This document shows positions 13,721 through 21,648 of a stretch of 64,000 nucleotides of DNA, piece after piece. Position numbers and translations under genes: made by a program. The notes under the pieces were generated by a model that did no database searches, had not been told where the DNA came from, and worked only from the letters and a program-made list of their open reading frames with translations. How positions within the stretch are numbered: position 1 is the first letter of the stretch; each line of letters begins with the position of its first letter. Origin of the DNA: Anaerosomatales bacterium (lineage in GTDB: Bacteria; Actinomycetota; Coriobacteriia; Anaerosomatales; Anaerosomataceae); the NCBI GenBank assembly GCA_030019445.1, contig JASEEU010000003.1, positions 248,001-312,000 on the forward strand. The letters run 5' to 3'.

Positions 13721-13816
13721 GGCCCGGCGCTCCTTGCCATGCGCGAGGCGTCGCCATAGACTGTGACGCACGGCCCGGCCCTGCCGGGCATACCCCTGTC
13801 CCGAGAGGTTGATGGC

Positions 13817-14206
13817 GTGTTCGGTATCGGCGGCTGGGAGTTCCTCATCATAGCGGTCGTCGCCCTCCTGCTGTTCGGGCCCGACAAGCTGCCCGACCTG
13901 GCCCGCACGCTCGGTCGCTTCATGGGCGACTTCAAACGCTACCGGGACATCATGGAGTCCACCATCAGGGCTGAGATGTACGCGTCGTCCACCGATAAGC
14001 CCGACCCCTTCAAGAAGGGCAAGGAGTTCAGGGAGAAGGTCACCGCGTCCAAGGCTACCGCGGTGGCCGAGAAGCCCGACGCCGAGAAGCCCGAGCCTGC
14101 GGCATCCGAGACCGAGAAGCCCGAGCTTGCGGCATCCGAGACCGAGAAGCCCGCGCCGCCGGCGGAAACCTCCGACGATGGGAAGGAGGAGGCTCCGGCC
14201 GAGTAG
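13817..14206 (+). CDS. tatB: Sec-independent translocase TatA/TatB subunit
   Basis: The 129-residue product opens with the TatA/B signature MFGIGGWEFLIIAVVALLLFGPDKLPD: a short membrane helix, the FGP hinge and an amphipathic helix (LARTLGRFMGDFKRYRD). The tail is acidic and contains two near-identical copies of ASETEKPE. The N-terminal Gly rather than Glu after the first residues leaves TatA versus TatB open; pairing with tatC and tail length favour TatB. GTG 13817 has GAGAGG upstream. It exports folded, often cofactor-bearing proteins. Confidence 0.88.
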   Translation: MFGIGGWEFLIIAVVALLLFGPDKLPDLARTLGRFMGDFKRYRDIMESTIRAEMYASSTDKPDPFKKGKEFREKVTASKATAVAEKPDAEKPEPAASETEKPELAASETEKPAPPAETSDDGKEEAPAE

Positions 14207-14221
14207 GCGGGGCCGCGGACC

Positions 14222-14980
14222 ATGCCCATCGGACCAGCACGTATGCCCTTCCTGGGTCATGTGAACGAGCTGCGCAAGCGCCTCACGGTCGTCATCGCCG
14301 TGTTGAGCGTCCTCACCGTGGTCGGCTACTTCTTCTCCGACGAGGTATTCAACATCCTCGTCGGCCCGATGCGCGACCTGATCGGTGAGCAGGGCTCGTA
14401 CGCGTTCGACGTGCTCGAGCCGATGGCGAACCGGTTCCGCCTCGGCATCTTCGGCGCGGTCATCGTCGGCAGCCCGATCGTGATCTACGAAGCGTTCGCG
14501 TTCTTCCTGCCGGCCCTCAAGCCGCGCGAGCGCAAGTGGTTCTTGTGGACGTTCTTCTTCGCGGTGGTGCTCTTCCTCGCCGGTGTCGCGTTCTGCTACT
14601 TCTTCATCCTCGAGCCGAGCGCCGTCTGGCTCGTCGAGCAGAGCGGCGAGACCTTCCAGCTGCTGCTTCGCGCGCAGAGCGCCATGACCTTCGCGATGTG
14701 GTTCCTCGCCGGCTTCGGCATCGCGTTCGAGGTTCCCGTCGTGGTCTTCTACCTCGTCTACTTCCAGGTCGTCCCGTACGACAAGCTGCGCAAGAACTGG
14801 CGTGTCGTGTGGGTGGTGATCATCATCATCGCCTCGATGATCACCCCCGACTGGAACCCGTGGAGCATGGCCGCGCTGTCCGGCGCGATGATCGCGCTGT
14901 TCGAGGGCAGCATGGCGTTCGTACGCATCCTGCTGGCCAAGAAGATCCGCGCGCAGAAGCTCGCGGGCGAAGCCGCGTAA
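14222..14980 (+). CDS. tatC: Sec-independent translocase TatC
   Basis: TatC is the twin-arginine signal receptor. The 252-residue protein has the N-terminal FLGHVNELRKRL motif (family HLxELR), PALKPRERKW after the second helix, and six predicted membrane helices ending in a basic tail. Length is typical. It lies 15 bases after tatA/B and 9 bases before hypA, so export and hydrogenase maturation genes appear to be one operon. Confidence 0.95.
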   Translation: MPIGPARMPFLGHVNELRKRLTVVIAVLSVLTVVGYFFSDEVFNILVGPMRDLIGEQGSYAFDVLEPMANRFRLGIFGAVIVGSPIVIYEAFAFFLPALKPRERKWFLWTFFFAVVLFLAGVAFCYFFILEPSAVWLVEQSGETFQLLLRAQSAMTFAMWFLAGFGIAFEVPVVVFYLVYFQVVPYDKLRKNWRVVWVVIIIIASMITPDWNPWSMAALSGAMIALFEGSMAFVRILLAKKIRAQKLAGEAA

Positions 14981-14989
14981 GGGGCGCGC

Positions 14990-15331
14990 GTGCACGAGAT
15001 GGGCATCTGTCAGGGCATCCTCACGGCCGCGACCGACGCGGCCGAGCGCGAGGGCGCCGCGCGGATCAACAGCATCGACGTCACCATCGGCGAGCTCACC
15101 CAGGTCGTCGAGGACGCGCTGCAGTTCGCGTTCGAGGTGCTCCGCCAGGACACGATCGCCGCCGACGCGACGCTCACCGTGACGTTCCTCGAGCCGCGTT
15201 CGCGCTGCACCGAGTGCGACATCGAGTTCGCCCACGGACGCTTCGACGTCCACTGCCCCGAGTGCGGCAGCTACGTGTGCGACCTGGTGCAGGGCAAGGA
15301 GCTCGCCATCGAGAGCATCGACATCGACTGA
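14990..15331 (+). CDS. hypA: Hydrogenase nickel incorporation protein HypA
   Basis: HypA delivers nickel to the NiFe hydrogenase large subunit. The product (113 residues) starts MHEM, with the nickel-binding His2, and has a zinc-binding pair of CxxC motifs (CTEC and CPEC) between about residues 73 and 92. GTG is the start; the next gene hypB is 13 bases downstream. hypCDEF and the hydrogenase itself are not in this window. Confidence 0.95.
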   Translation: MHEMGICQGILTAATDAAEREGAARINSIDVTIGELTQVVEDALQFAFEVLRQDTIAADATLTVTFLEPRSRCTECDIEFAHGRFDVHCPECGSYVCDLVQGKELAIESIDID

Positions 15332-15344
15332 CCGGAGGACGGCA

Positions 15345-16010
15345 GTGAAGATCGGCATCGAGAAGGGCATCCTGGAGTTCAACGACGCGCTTGCCGAGGA
15401 GAACCGCGCGCTGTTCTCGGCACATGGCGTGTTCGTCGTCGACCTGATGGCCAGCCCCGGCGCCGGCAAGACCTCCACGATCCTTGCGACCATAGCTGCG
15501 CTGCGCGACCGGTACCGGATCGCCGTCATCGAGGGCGACATCGCGAGCAAGGTCGATGCCGAGAAGGTCAAGGCGCACGGGATCCCGGCGGTGCAGATCA
15601 ACACCGGCGGCGCGTGCCACCTGGAGTCGCGCATGATCCGTCGCGCGGTGGAGGCCATCGACCTGGACGAGGTCGACCTGCTCATCATCGAGAACGTAGG
15701 TAACCTGGTCTGCCCCACCGACTTCGACCTGGGCGAGCATGCCAAGGTGATGATCCTTTCGGTCCCTGAGGGGCACGACAAGCCCTACAAGTACCCGGAC
15801 ATCTTCCGGGTCTCAGAGGCGGTCATCCTGAACAAGTACGACACGATGAGCGTCTTCGACTTCGATGAGGCGGACTTCCGCAGGGTCGTCACGAGCCTCA
15901 ACCCGCAGGCCCCCGTCTTCCCGATGTCGGCGACGTCCGGCGCGGGCGTCGAGGCCTGGGCGGAGTGGCTCGCCGCGCGCATCGAGGCCGTGAGGGGTGA
16001 GACGTCATGA
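15345..16010 (+). CDS. hypB: Hydrogenase maturation GTPase HypB
   Basis: HypB is the SIMIBI GTPase that works with HypA in nickel insertion. The P-loop ASPGAGKT is at residues 36-43, followed by IEGDIASKVDAEK, the metal-site GGACHLE, the ENVGNLVCP segment and an NKYD guanine motif. The N-terminal histidine-rich or CxxCGC nickel-storage extension found in some HypB is absent. GTG 15345 follows GGAGG. The stop overlaps the HD hydrolase start. Confidence 0.95.
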   Translation: MKIGIEKGILEFNDALAEENRALFSAHGVFVVDLMASPGAGKTSTILATIAALRDRYRIAVIEGDIASKVDAEKVKAHGIPAVQINTGGACHLESRMIRRAVEAIDLDEVDLLIIENVGNLVCPTDFDLGEHAKVMILSVPEGHDKPYKYPDIFRVSEAVILNKYDTMSVFDFDEADFRRVVTSLNPQAPVFPMSATSGAGVEAWAEWLAARIEAVRGETS

Positions 16011-16561
16011 TCGATCGGGAACGCGCGCTCGAACTCGTGCGCGAGCGCATCGGCAACCGCAACCTGGTCAACCACTGCGTCGCCACCGAGGCGATCATGC
16101 GCGCGCTCGCCGTGCGCTTCGAGCTGCCGGAGGACGACGTGGAGCGATGGGCACTCGCGGGGTTGCTGCACGACCTGGACTACGCCCAGACGGCCGAGGA
16201 CTTCGAACGTCATGGCGTCCTGACCGCCGAGATGCTCGCGGGCGAGATCGACGACGAGATGCGTCACGCGATCCTCGCGCACGCCGACAAGGCGCCGCGG
16301 GAGAGCCGCATGGACGTCGCGCTCTATGCGGCCGACCCCACGACCGGCTTCATCGTGGCGGCGGCGCTCGTGCGTCCCGACAAGTCGCTCGCCGGCGTGC
16401 AGCTGAAGTCGCTCACGAAGCGCTGGAAGGAGAAGGCGTTCGCCCGCGGCGCCAGCCGCGACCAGATGGCCGCGTGTGCCGATCTGGGTATGGAGCGGGA
16501 CGACTTCCTCGCGCTCTCGCTCGCCGCCATGCAGGCCATCTCCGACGACCTCGGGCTGTAG
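16007..16561 (+). CDS. HD-domain hydrolase
   Basis: An HD superfamily phosphohydrolase-like protein of 184 residues with NHCVATEAIMRAL (first His), LLHDLDYAQ (the HD pair) and ILAHADKAPR. Related small proteins are often annotated as HDIG-type hydrolases; the substrate is unknown. It overlaps hypB by four bases (ATGA), so it ends the tat-hyp operon; the connection to hydrogenase maturation is only positional. Confidence 0.85.
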   Translation: MIDRERALELVRERIGNRNLVNHCVATEAIMRALAVRFELPEDDVERWALAGLLHDLDYAQTAEDFERHGVLTAEMLAGEIDDEMRHAILAHADKAPRESRMDVALYAADPTTGFIVAAALVRPDKSLAGVQLKSLTKRWKEKAFARGASRDQMAACADLGMERDDFLALSLAAMQAISDDLGL

Positions 16562-16660: not shown

Positions 16661-19021
16661 ATGCGACTTGTCATCTCCGAGAAGAACATAGCCGCCCGAC
16701 GCATCGCCGAGATACTCGCGGTGGGTCAGCCGACGGCTGACAAGGTCTACTCCACGCCGGTCTACCGCTTCCGGCGGGACGGCGAGGACTGGGTCAGCGT
16801 CGGCCTCAAGGGCCACATCATGGAGGTGGACTTCCCGGAGGAGTGGGAGTCGCAGGGGCTCAAGAAGTGGACGCTGGAGTCGCTTCCGACCCTCGTGGGC
16901 GCGCCCGTCCTCAAGCTCCCCAAGGAGCGGGGGATCATCCAGTCGCTACGCAACCTCGCGAAGAAGGCCGACGCGGTCATCATCGCCACCGACTACGACC
17001 GCGAAGGCGAGCTCATCGGCGCCGACGCGCGCGACATCGTGCGCGAGCAGAACCCGGACGTCCCGGTCAGCCGGGTGCGTTTCTCGGCCATCACGAAGGA
17101 TGAGATCGAGCGCGCGTTCGCCGAGGCGGACACCGTGAGCGAGGCGCTTGCCGAGGCGGGGGAGACGCGCCAGGACATCGACCTCATCTGGGGCGCGGTG
17201 ATGACGCGCTACCTCACGCTGGCGCACCAGAAGATCACGCGACGCCCGTTCGGCGACGTGCTCTCGGCCGGCCGGGTCCAGACGCCCACGCTCAAGCTTA
17301 TCGTCGACCGGGAGAAGGAGCGCGACGCGTTCGTCCCCGAGGACTACTGGGTCGTGAAGGCGACCTTCAGCCAGAAGGGCGAGGAGTTCGGCGCGACGCA
17401 TGCGACCGATCGCTTCACCTCCGAAGCCGATGCGCAGGCCGCCGTCGCCGCCACCCAGAGCGCTGACAGCGGCGTCGTGACGGAGGTCAAGCGCACGCGG
17501 CGGACCGTGAATCCGCCTGCGCCGTTCAACACGACGTCGCTCATGGCCGCCGCCGCGTCGGAAGGGCTGACGCCCGCCCGGACGATGCGGATCGCCGAGT
17601 CGCTCTATATGAGCGGCTACATCTCATATCCGCGCGTCGACAACACCGTCTACCCGCCGAGCCTGGACCTCAAGGCCATCCTCCATGCGCTCGACCGCGT
17701 GCCTGTCTACCACGAGCACGTCACGAAGCTGCTGAAGAAGGGCACGCTCACCGCCACGCGCGGGAAGAAGGAGACGACAGACCATCCGCCGATCCATCCC
17801 ACGGGCCCGGCGGACCCCGAGAAGCTCGGGGGACCGGAGTGGAAGGTCTACAACCTCGTGGCGCGCCGCTTCCTCGCGACCCTCTCGGACCCCGCGGTCA
17901 TCGAGGCCACGCGCGTGGACATCGATGTCAACGGGCAGGGCTTCGTCGCGCGTGGCGACGTGGTCGTCTCGGCTGGCTTCCGCGCGATCTACCCCTACGG
18001 ACTCAAGAAGGAGGAGCGGCTCCCGGCGATGGCCGAGGGCGACCGCCCCGACTTCCTCGGCGCGCAACTCGACGCCAAGCAGACGCAGCCGCCGGCGCGG
18101 TACTCGGCGGGCAAGCTCATCCAGGAGATGGAGCGCCTCGGGCTCGGCACCAAGGCCACGCGTCACGACATCATCCAGAACCTCTACGACCGCAAGTATG
18201 TGGCGAACGAGCCGATCGAGCCCACGTGCAAGGGCCGGACCGTGATCGAGGCGCTGACCAAGTACGCCGAGCGGATCACCACCCCCGAGATGACCCAGCG
18301 GCTCGAGGAGGAGATGGACGCCATCGCCGGCGGGCGTGACTCCCGCGAGAACGTCGTTGGGCATTCGCGCAAGCTGCTCGCCGATGTGATCGAGACGGTG
18401 CTGCCCATCGCCCAGGAGGTCGGCGAGCTGCTCAAGAGCGCCACTGACGAGGACGCGAAGGTCGGCACCTGTCCGGAGTCCGGCCACGACCTGCTCATCA
18501 AGTTCTCGCCGAAGAACCGCACCTACTTCGTGGGGTGCGCCGGCTACCCCGAGTGCAGCGTGACGTATCCGCTGCCGCGCAACGCCAAGTTCGCCTCGGT
18601 GGACGAGGTCTGCGAGGTATGCGGCACGCCGCAGGTCAAGGTGCTGCAGTTCAAGCGCAAGCCGCAGATCATGTGCCTCAGCCCCACGTGCCCCACCAAG
18701 CGCGGCCCGGACATCATGATCGCCAAGGGCGGCTGTCCCACCGGCGACGGGGGGGACCTCGTTGTCGAGTACTCGGCCGTGGGCAAGCGCTACGTGCGTT
18801 GCACCAACTACGAGCAGTGCAAGACCTCCTACCCGCTCCCGCAGCAGGGGGACATCGAGCCCACCGAGGAACGCTGCGAGTGCGGGGCGCCGGTCGTCAT
18901 CGTCCATACGCGCAAGGGCCCGTGGAAGATCTGCGTGGACCCGGAGTGCCCGCTCAAGGCCGAGCACAAGAAGCCGGTCCGACGCACGGGCGGGAAGAAG
19001 CGCGCCCCGCGCAAGAAGTGA
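16661..19021 (+). CDS. topA: DNA topoisomerase I, archaeal type
   Basis: A 786-residue type IA topoisomerase that relaxes negative supercoils. The Toprim domain starts RLVISEKNIAARRIAEIL and carries the acidic motif ATDYDREGELIG; the catalytic tyrosine is Tyr323 in YISYPRVDNTVYP. These versions (SEK..AARRIA, TDYDREGE, SYPR.DNT) match archaeal TopA, not the bacterial form (VESPAKAKTI, DPDREGEAIA, TYMRTDS). The C-terminal part has four cysteine-pair zinc-ribbon-like repeats and a basic tail. Flanking genes are bacterial, so transfer or an old replacement is likely. Whether a bacterial topA also exists in the genome cannot be seen. Confidence 0.93.
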   Translation: MRLVISEKNIAARRIAEILAVGQPTADKVYSTPVYRFRRDGEDWVSVGLKGHIMEVDFPEEWESQGLKKWTLESLPTLVGAPVLKLPKERGIIQSLRNLAKKADAVIIATDYDREGELIGADARDIVREQNPDVPVSRVRFSAITKDEIERAFAEADTVSEALAEAGETRQDIDLIWGAVMTRYLTLAHQKITRRPFGDVLSAGRVQTPTLKLIVDREKERDAFVPEDYWVVKATFSQKGEEFGATHATDRFTSEADAQAAVAATQSADSGVVTEVKRTRRTVNPPAPFNTTSLMAAAASEGLTPARTMRIAESLYMSGYISYPRVDNTVYPPSLDLKAILHALDRVPVYHEHVTKLLKKGTLTATRGKKETTDHPPIHPTGPADPEKLGGPEWKVYNLVARRFLATLSDPAVIEATRVDIDVNGQGFVARGDVVVSAGFRAIYPYGLKKEERLPAMAEGDRPDFLGAQLDAKQTQPPARYSAGKLIQEMERLGLGTKATRHDIIQNLYDRKYVANEPIEPTCKGRTVIEALTKYAERITTPEMTQRLEEEMDAIAGGRDSRENVVGHSRKLLADVIETVLPIAQEVGELLKSATDEDAKVGTCPESGHDLLIKFSPKNRTYFVGCAGYPECSVTYPLPRNAKFASVDEVCEVCGTPQVKVLQFKRKPQIMCLSPTCPTKRGPDIMIAKGGCPTGDGGDLVVEYSAVGKRYVRCTNYEQCKTSYPLPQQGDIEPTEERCECGAPVVIVHTRKGPWKICVDPECPLKAEHKKPVRRTGGKKRAPRKK

Positions 19022-19077
19022 CGGTGGGCGCCGGTCGGGGCAGATACTAGGTGCCGCCGATCCGACGGGAGCCCACG

Positions 19078-19752
19078 ATGAGACTGGCAGTCGTCCAACC
19101 CGGCCTCCGGGCAACGACCGATGAGGACCTGCGCGCGCTGCGCGACGCCGTCGCGTCGGCCGCGGCAGCCGGTGCGGAGACCGTCATCGTGCCCGACATC
19201 CCAGCGCTGCACGACCACCCCGATCCTGGAGGCTGGCGACCGATCGAGGATGCCGCCGGCACCGCGCGCCTGCTCGTCGCGCACGTGCCTGCCGGTCAGA
19301 CCCACGCGCTCATCGAGGCGGACGGCATCGGCACCGTGGCGGTCGTCTCGGGAGACGGGGTCATCGACCCCGCCGAGATGGGTCGCGTCATGGCCGAGCA
19401 GCCCGACGTGCTCGTGCTCTCGCCACGCAGCGAGTCAGACCTTCAGGCCGAGGCGTTCCTGGAGCTCGCGCTCGGCTACAGCGGCTCGGTCGCCGCGCTC
19501 GTCATCGTGGTGGAGCCCGATGGGGCCGAGGTCGGCGACCCGGGCCATGGCGGCAGTGCCGTCGTCCACCTGGGAGCGGTCGTCACCGAAGCGCGCTCCG
19601 GTGATGACCTCCTGCTTGCCGAGGCGGAGATGCCTCCCGGACCCCCCGAGCCGCGGAGCGCGCTTCCGGACGTCCCGCCGATCCTGCTGCAGCGCCTCGC
19701 GGTCCACGCGGGGCGCAAGCTCGACGTGGGCTACCCCGCCGATCTCGACTGA
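19078..19752 (+). CDS. Nitrilase-fold protein lacking the catalytic cysteine
   Basis: The product (224 residues) starts MRLAVVQPG and follows the alpha-beta-beta-alpha order of carbon-nitrogen hydrolases, including a segment TVAVVSGDGVIDPAEMGRVM where active enzymes have a VxxxxCYDxxFPE-type motif. The nucleophile position is Ser or Val here and no other suitable Cys is present; in fact the protein has no cysteine at all. It is also shorter than usual (about 260-280). It may be a pseudoenzyme; the assignment rests on fold pattern alone. GGGAG precedes the ATG. Confidence 0.5.
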   Translation: MRLAVVQPGLRATTDEDLRALRDAVASAAAAGAETVIVPDIPALHDHPDPGGWRPIEDAAGTARLLVAHVPAGQTHALIEADGIGTVAVVSGDGVIDPAEMGRVMAEQPDVLVLSPRSESDLQAEAFLELALGYSGSVAALVIVVEPDGAEVGDPGHGGSAVVHLGAVVTEARSGDDLLLAEAEMPPGPPEPRSALPDVPPILLQRLAVHAGRKLDVGYPADLD

Positions 19753-19872: not shown

Positions 19873-20808
19873 GTGGCGCTTCCGAAAGTGACCGTGGTCG
19901 GGGCCGGGCAGGTCGGCGCGACCGCCGCCTTCCTCATGGCGGTGAAAGGTCTCGCCGATGTCGTGCTCGTGGACGTGGCCGCGGGGATCCCGCAGGGCAA
20001 GGCGCTCGACATGATGCACAGCCGCTCCGTCGAGCGGTTCGCGGGCACGGTCGTCGGTACGAACGAGTACGAGCTCACCGCGGGGTCGGAGGTCGTCGTG
20101 ATCACGGCCGGCCTTCCGAGGAAGCCCGGCATGACCCGAGACGATCTACTGGCGGCGAACGCGTCGATCGTGCGCTCCGTCGTCACCCAGCTGGTGCAGT
20201 ACTCTCCCGACGCCGTCATCGTCTGCGTCACCAATCCGCTTGACGTGATGACGTACCTGGCGTGGAAGGTCTCCGGGCTGCCGGCGGCCCGGGTCCTCGG
20301 CATGGGCGGCGTGCTCGACTCGGCGCGTTTCGCGTACTTCATCGCCGAGGCGACGGGCGAGCCGATCGCCGACATCGAGGCGCTCGTCATCGGCGCGCAC
20401 GGCGACGCGATGGTGCCGCTGCCCCGCCTCTCCACGGTGGCCGGCCGACCGCTCCCCGAGGTCCTCGATGAAGCGGCGGTGGCCGAGGTGGTGCGGCGCA
20501 CCGTCTTCGGCGGCGCCGAGGTCGTCTCGCTGCTCGGCTCGGGCAGCGCCTTCTACGCCCCCGCGGCGTCGGTGACCGCGATGGTCGAGGCGATCCTGCA
20601 CGACTCCGGGGCGGTCATGCCGTCCTGCGTCTACCTCGAGGGCCAGTACGGCCTGGACGACGTGTATGTCTCGGTGCCCGCATCGCTCGGCCGCGGCGGC
20701 GTGCGCGACGTGCCCGAGTATGGCCTCACCGAAGACGAGCTCGCCGACGTGCAACGGTCGGCGCGAGGCGTGTCCGAGAGCGTCGCCGTGGTCGTGCAGG
20801 GCGGATGA
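19873..20808 (+). CDS. mdh: Malate dehydrogenase
   Basis: NAD-dependent malate/oxaloacetate interconversion. The 311-residue protein has the Rossmann GAGQVGA motif, the substrate-binding arginines in AGLPRKPGMTRDDLL, CVTNPLDVMTY, the GVLDSARF segment, and the catalytic histidine in VIGAHGDAMVPL; the arginine-methionine pattern favours malate over lactate. It is three bases upstream of the fumarase alpha gene, a natural pairing for the oxaloacetate-malate-fumarate branch. GTG start with GAGAGGGG upstream. Confidence 0.93.
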   Translation: MALPKVTVVGAGQVGATAAFLMAVKGLADVVLVDVAAGIPQGKALDMMHSRSVERFAGTVVGTNEYELTAGSEVVVITAGLPRKPGMTRDDLLAANASIVRSVVTQLVQYSPDAVIVCVTNPLDVMTYLAWKVSGLPAARVLGMGGVLDSARFAYFIAEATGEPIADIEALVIGAHGDAMVPLPRLSTVAGRPLPEVLDEAAVAEVVRRTVFGGAEVVSLLGSGSAFYAPAASVTAMVEAILHDSGAVMPSCVYLEGQYGLDDVYVSVPASLGRGGVRDVPEYGLTEDELADVQRSARGVSESVAVVVQGG

Positions 20809-20811
20809 CCC

Positions 20812-21648
20812 GTGATCGGGCCGGACGCGATAGCGGCCGCGGTCGCCGGAGCCGTCCGTGAGGCGGCGACGACGCTGCGTCCCGATGTGCGCGTGGCGCT
20901 GGAGCGGGCGATAGCCGCCGAGCGCTCACCGCGAGGTCGACAGGTCCTCGAACAGCTGGCCGAGAACGCCCGCATCGCGCATGACGAACGCGTCCCGCTC
21001 TGTCAGGACACCGGCACCGTGTGGGTGCGGGTGGAGATCGGCGAGGAGGAGTGCGTCCGGGGATCGGTGCGCGCCGCGGTCGATGCGGCGGTGGCCGAGA
21101 CGTACCGCGCGAGCGCGCTCAGGATGAGCGTCGTGCGCGACGCGTTCTCTGACCGGGCCAACACCGGTGACAACACACCGGCCTTCATCGAACTCGCCCA
21201 ACGCCCCGGCACCGGAGCCACGGTGCACGTGATGCTCAAGGGCGGTGGCTCGGACAACTCCTCGGCACTGGCGATGCTCGAGCCCGCTGCCGGTCGCGAA
21301 GGCATCGTGCGCTTCGTGCTGTCCGTCGTCGAAGGTAAGGCGACAGGGGCGTGCCCGCCGTTGCTCGTGGGGGTGGGCATCGGGGGCACGTTCGACACGG
21401 TCGCCGCGCTCGCGAAGAAGGCGCTGTTGCGCTCGCTCGACGAGCCGTCGCCCGGACCCGTCGACGAGCTGGAGCGCGAGATCCTCGACGTCGTCAACGC
21501 CACCGGTATCGGCCCCGCGGGTCTCGGCGGCTCGACCACCGCGTTCGGCGTCCGCGTGCTCACCGCTCCGTGCCACATCGCCGCGCTACCGGTCGCCGTC
21601 AACCTGGGCTGCTCGGCCGTGCGCTCCGCTACCGTGGAGATCGCCTGA
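20812..21648 (+). CDS. Fumarate hydratase class I, alpha subunit
   Basis: The 278-residue protein has the Fe-S hydratase N-domain motifs: VPLCQDTGTVWV, SDRANTGDNTPAF, MLKGGGSDNSS, GACPPLLVGVGIGGT and LGGSTTAFGVRV. The cluster cysteines are in these segments. The two-subunit form needs a beta subunit, which is found not next door but 1.5 kb on, after an MFS gene. A tartrate dehydratase cannot be excluded, but the mdh neighbour supports fumarase. The stop overlaps the MFS start (TGATG). Confidence 0.92.
   Translation: MIGPDAIAAAVAGAVREAATTLRPDVRVALERAIAAERSPRGRQVLEQLAENARIAHDERVPLCQDTGTVWVRVEIGEEECVRGSVRAAVDAAVAETYRASALRMSVVRDAFSDRANTGDNTPAFIELAQRPGTGATVHVMLKGGGSDNSSALAMLEPAAGREGIVRFVLSVVEGKATGACPPLLVGVGIGGTFDTVAALAKKALLRSLDEPSPGPVDELEREILDVVNATGIGPAGLGGSTTAFGVRVLTAPCHIAALPVAVNLGCSAVRSATVEIA

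Follow-up and report, generated by a model that had tools for sequence, protein, structure and literature searches.

An archaeal-type topoisomerase III as the only type IA topoisomerase found in an Anaerosomatales genome, and its occurrence among the Actinomycetota

The window analysed, a stretch of 64,000 nucleotides from the chromosome of an Anaerosomatales bacterium, carries at 16661–19021 an open reading frame for a type IA topoisomerase that lies between two groups of genes with conserved neighbourhood. The features of the locus and of the encoded protein are as follows.

13763–16010, + strand: tatA, tatC, hypA and hypB, conserved upstream block (Pfam; synteny of tatC, hypA and hypB)
16007–16561, + strand: HD-domain protein, immediate upstream neighbour, conserved in the order (Pfam HD; synteny)
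16661–19021, + strand: archaeal-type type IA topoisomerase (Topo III / topA_arch), 786 aa (open ORF, NF005555, TIGR01057, trees)
16667–17089, + strand: Toprim domain, aa 3–143 (Pfam Toprim)
17138–18358, + strand: catalytic toroid domains, aa 160–566 (PF01131, E 3.6e-123)
17618–17647, + strand: active-site motif YISYPRVDNT, aa 320–329 (alignment of 71 sequences; PMC10969213)
18461–18583, + strand: zinc ribbon 1, aa 601–641 (PF01396; C604, C626, C632)
18611–18691, + strand: C-terminal zinc-binding unit 2 (cysteine list: C651, C654, C672, C677)
18734–18949, + strand: second zinc-ribbon pair (cysteine counts: C692, C714, C720; C739, C741, C758, C763)
19051–19752, + strand: conserved downstream ORF (synteny; no Pfam match)
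19873–21648, + strand: genes for a malate/lactate dehydrogenase family protein and for fumarate hydratase, a downstream block also seen in other classes (Pfam; synteny in L243, L244, L245)

The protein begins at the Toprim domain and has no N-terminal helicase module; Pfam reports Topoisom_bac (E 3.6e-123) together with Toprim and Zn_ribbon_Top1. The three motifs quoted in the first-pass annotation are all present in the reading frame, namely SEKNIAARRIAEIL at residues 6–19, ATDYDREGELIG at residues 109–120 and the active-site motif YISYPRVDNT. According to the residue table, the Toprim domain contains E7-K8 and D111-x-D113-R-E, while the catalytic tyrosine is Y323 and is followed by P324.

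Units 1 and 3 of the zinc-ribbon tail (18461–18949) have three cysteines apiece versus the usual four. In zinc ribbon 1, a serine at residue 607 occupies the usual position of the fourth cysteine, as judged from the cysteine list and the consensus of relatives. The cysteine count of the tail is 13–17 in Coriobacteriia and usually 8 (range 7–9) in most other archaeal-type Actinomycetota, and the second zinc-ribbon pair is an extra module of the Coriobacteriia.

Both archaeal family models assign the protein above their cut-offs, NF005555/PRK07220 with 836.6 bits (cut-off 635) and TIGR01057 topA_arch with 479.3 bits (cut-off 458), and the scores remain below cut-off for TIGR01051 topA_bact (270.5, cut-off 456.4), TIGR01056 TopB (274.5, cut-off 515.75) and TIGR01054 reverse gyrase (171.9, cut-off 471.7). 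Topo III enzymes are distinguished by a lysine after the first Toprim glutamate and a proline after the catalytic tyrosine, neither of which occurs in bacterial Topo I (PMC10969213). In an alignment of 71 sequences both hallmarks are found in the enzyme studied here, as E7-K8 and Y323-P324, and EK and SYPRxDNT occur in it as well as in every archaeal-type sequence from Actinomycetota. Bacterial Topo I shows E-S and Y-M in this alignment, with VESP-type and TYMRTDS-type motifs, and TopB shows EKPS and TYPR; the bacterial forms (VESPxK... and YITYMRTDS) were not found in our enzyme, as had been noted in the first-pass annotation. The best matches among solved structures are human TOP3A and TOP3B. 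It is thus confirmed that 16661–19021 encodes a full-length type IA topoisomerase, which belongs to a known family, the archaeal/eukaryal (Topo III) type.

One might object that the enzyme is a bacterial Topo I or TopB that has diverged and resembles archaeal ones only in its motifs, given that the fold is common to all type IA enzymes and that TIGR01051 and TIGR01056 do match, if below cut-off. This is very unlikely, as the two hallmark residues agree with the two archaeal models, and as both groupings are rejected by AU tests on 22 sequences: a union of the Actinomycetota enzymes with bacterial Topo I at p 0.0013 and a union with TopB at p 0.0023. With 35 sequences, the union with bacterial Topo I was again rejected (p 0.023). 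A placement within bacterial TopA, which had been named beforehand as an outcome that would speak against an archaeal type, is therefore rejected.

In a tree of 58 sequences, Topo I and Topo III are split at 100/100. Within Topo III, a branch apart from TopB (100/96) unites human TOP3A/B, the haloarchaeon Salinibaculum and all archaeal-type Actinomycetota, and the enzyme from the window falls among the Coriobacteriia at 100/100. The deepest splits among the archaeal-type Actinomycetota sequences are weakly supported, and one viral sequence sits among them. Archaea are represented in the trees by one full-length cellular protein, that of Salinibaculum, and by the N-terminal half of Saccharolobus Topo III (6k8n), which is on a long branch. 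PDB entry 6k8n, which we take to be the Topo III of Saccharolobus solfataricus, is an archaeal Topo III that our enzyme matches over residues 3–594. The description of the motifs as especially haloarchaeal-like was not upheld: the sole full-length cellular archaeal sequence compared comes from a haloarchaeon, and the same motifs run through the entire Actinomycetota clade.

The position of the haloarchaeal protein also bears on the direction of a possible transfer, as the subtype might have passed from Actinomycetota to haloarchaea or methanogens. Some bacteria reach very high NF005555 scores (up to 1106 bits in family f33) and the Salinibaculum copy sits on a plasmid, both of which would fit such a transfer, but Salinibaculum lies outside the Actinomycetota clade, though on a branch of only 93/78, and we regard this direction as unlikely.

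The genome, of which 2.09 Mb were searched (97.6% complete), contains one PF01131 match, namely the enzyme at 16661–19021; a check for a bacterial topA elsewhere, proposed in the first-pass annotation, revealed none in this search. There is one type IIA enzyme (PF00521), which we take to be very probably GyrA (gyrase), and the genome gave no match to the Topo VI A subunit and none to a type IB enzyme. The searches thus gave two topoisomerases in all for this genome, one of archaeal type and one of type IIA. For a canonical RecQ partner nothing exceeded the cut-off, the best score being 151.5 of 219.8 bits. In principle, a further topoisomerase might lie in the 2.4% of the genome that is missing, but complete relatives speak against this: Coriobacteriia genomes that are complete in a single contig also have one PF01131 match (e.g. 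G003, G004, G056, G060, G082), so that incompleteness is not the reason for the single type IA enzyme. Nearly every genome of the Actinomycetota has exactly one type IA enzyme. The view that this genome has an archaeal-type enzyme instead of a bacterial one has thus stood up, by the models, the residues, the trees, the AU tests and the single PF01131 match.

The same gene had been regarded as a peculiarity of one chromosome, and this view did not survive the genome searches, which covered the phylum Actinomycetota. Within the order, 67 of 69 genomes have a match at E <= 0.001 in the protein search, with identities mostly of ~60–77% over the full length. In the class Coriobacteriia, TIGR01057 finds matches in 195 of 199 genomes at E <= 0.001, with a copy number of one as a rule, although this model alone is no clean separator, as the scores of class members straddle its cut-off. 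Because most of them are just below it, their identity as members of the same family rests on the protein search, NF005555 and the tree. Across the phylum, the NF005555 cut-off is exceeded in 164 of 396 genomes, including many families outside the Coriobacteriia. The archaeal-type enzyme is therefore common to the whole class Coriobacteriia and to most of the deep Actinomycetota families sampled, which together form just the kind of broad bacterial clade that the first-pass annotation had listed as evidence against its own reading.

If an archaeal gene had displaced topA by lateral transfer in recent times, and in the Anaerosomatales lineage only, this would explain both the archaeal-type sequence and the missing bacterial topA. 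Such an event is nevertheless extremely unlikely, since the type is present across the entire class and in most of the phylum's deep families, with congruent branching and common synteny.

In many enzymes of the Coriobacteriia the Toprim region is interrupted after residue ~62 by an insertion, about 40 aa in length as estimated from two genomes, which is missing in the enzyme from the window and in some relatives of the same family. Partial matches that start only at position 65–83 were considered as a second, bacterial type and rejected as such; by protein search they belong to the same family and carry the insertion after residue ~62.

Other arrangements were seen in families f33, f35 and f58. 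In f33, probably the Rubrobacteraceae, a second type IA enzyme occurs beside the archaeal-type one (L132–L136, L235–L236), and the tree puts this second enzyme with TopB; one genome of the family (G381) shows only the TopB-like enzyme. A single type IA enzyme that is TopB-like was observed in G211 of family f35 (L181, L284) and in G288 of family f58 (L186, L285), and in these two genomes Topo I and the archaeal-type enzyme are both missing. As RpoB places f35 and f58 among the archaeal-type families, their TopB-like state suggests a second replacement.

The age of the gene was judged against an RpoB tree of 29 Actinomycetota, for which ORFs were picked by similarity to E. coli RpoB. The five sampled families with bacterial Topo I (f23, f34, f37, f40, f51) form one RpoB clade (100/99), and three changes of topoisomerase state suffice on this tree. 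The RpoB pairs f36+f52, f42+f59, f24+f38 and f26+f44 are found again in the topoisomerase trees.

Gene order points in the same direction. The arrangement tat-hypA-hypB-HD-topA-(ORF)-mdh-fum-MFS is kept in most sampled members of the order, and tat-hypAB-topA-mdh-fum is seen again, whole or in part, in other families of the class. Outside the Coriobacteriia, topA-mdh-fum occurs in f24, f27 and f36. In the regions fetched, mdh, fum and tat were not found around bacterial-type topA. The ORF at 19051–19752, between topA and mdh, is itself kept in most sampled members of the order. With a synteny common to several classes, we interpret the archaeal-type topA as an old gene that has stayed at a conserved locus and was passed on mainly from parent to offspring lineages. 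Replacement of a core enzyme across domains, if it occurred, would be ancient and followed by mostly vertical descent.

Alternatively, there may have been no transfer between domains at all, if an ancient Topo III was kept vertically since the ancestor of bacteria and archaea and Topo I was gained or kept elsewhere. Every archaeon and eukaryote, and many bacteria, have enzymes of the Topo III type (PMC7140829), and the clade lies deep in the phylum according to the RpoB tree, so that this scenario retains a small probability. It is weakened by the fact that TopB, the bacterial Topo III known elsewhere, forms a separate branch, its union with the Actinomycetota enzymes being rejected at p 0.0023. 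We favour, with considerable confidence, an explanation in which an archaeal/eukaryal-type Topo III is the sole type IA enzyme, has a dual role, and goes back to deep acquisition or presence, with mainly vertical inheritance since. A deep ancestor from which much of the Actinomycetota descends would have gained the enzyme, most likely from an archaeal source, or would have possessed it already.

By homology, Y323 would cut one strand and hold the 5' phosphate, the acidic Toprim residues being used with Mg2+; a second strand would then be passed through the gate before resealing, probably with no ATP, as in type IA enzymes generally. The enzyme may act as a relaxase opposite gyrase, removing negative supercoils behind RNA polymerase, and as a decatenase that unlinks replication and recombination intermediates. 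Both jobs, which Topo I and Topo III can divide between them in other bacteria, would fall to this one enzyme because only one type IIA enzyme was found besides it. By analogy with the zinc ribbons of E. coli Topo I, the doubled zinc-ribbon tail of the Coriobacteriia probably helps to hold the passing strand. A wider proposal, to which we give about even chances, is that deep Actinomycetota, gut Coriobacteriia included, run their chromosome on gyrase plus archaeal-type Topo III, and that the zinc tail helped a decatenase to become the main relaxase.

Human TOP3A and TOP3B have the partner proteins RMI1/RMI2 and TDRD3; to our knowledge, no partner proteins are known for the enzyme described here. 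The human enzymes (PDB 4cgy, 9cah) share its tree branch but carry YPRTE where its type has YPRxDNT. Archaeal topoisomerase I/III, e.g. TopoIII-alpha of Methanosarcina acetivorans (PMC3202574), is like it in having the Topo III hallmarks and a C-terminal zinc ribbon. The enzyme described here differs from these in its bacterial host, in being the sole type IA enzyme beside one of type IIA, and in the extra zinc-ribbon pair of the Coriobacteriia. Saccharolobus Topo III has been described as relaxing negatively supercoiled DNA poorly (PMC8185306) and as a decatenase (PMC10969213).

Bacterial Topo I (TopA of E. coli, or of Mycobacterium and Streptomyces) has the same presumed role, the removal of excess negative supercoils, and E. 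coli TopA also has C4 zinc ribbons, but bacterial Topo I differs by VESPxK and YMRTDS and by its separate branch (100/100). The tail of actinobacterial TopA consists of lysine repeats with no zinc fingers (PMC7398561). TopB shares the E-K and Y-P hallmarks with our enzyme and differs in forming a separate branch, and its model scores below cut-off.

According to reviews, every bacterium has Topo I and archaea lack it (PMC7140829; similarly PMC10969213), a statement that is contradicted by its absence in Coriobacteriia and in most of the deep Actinomycetota families sampled. Coriobacteria are not mentioned in PMC9369019, PMC7398561 or PMC10969213, and in the open literature, to which our search was confined (subscription work being outside its scope), we found no paper on the distribution of archaeal-type topoisomerases in Actinomycetota. 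The public annotation of the Collinsella gene reads “DNA topoisomerase I”, a name that masks the difference from bacterial Topo I. By these genomes, a large group of bacteria, some of them in culture, does without Topo I. The group provides a natural setting in which to ask whether a Topo III of archaeal type is able to maintain supercoil homeostasis against gyrase, and it bears on how Topo I inhibitors in development would affect gut Coriobacteriia.

Phages yielded only distant type IA enzymes. Two relatives of the enzyme are on plasmids, one in Collinsella and one in Salinibaculum; the copy of Salinibaculum sp. KK48 (L214:6001–8325) lies on a 560 kb plasmid, beside genes for dnaK, TFB and EF-1 alpha. 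Viral contigs yielded one relative, a 676-aa archaeal-type topoisomerase with 38% identity on a contig of 242 kb (IMG/VR; L215:5989–8019), which is placed among the Actinomycetota sequences.
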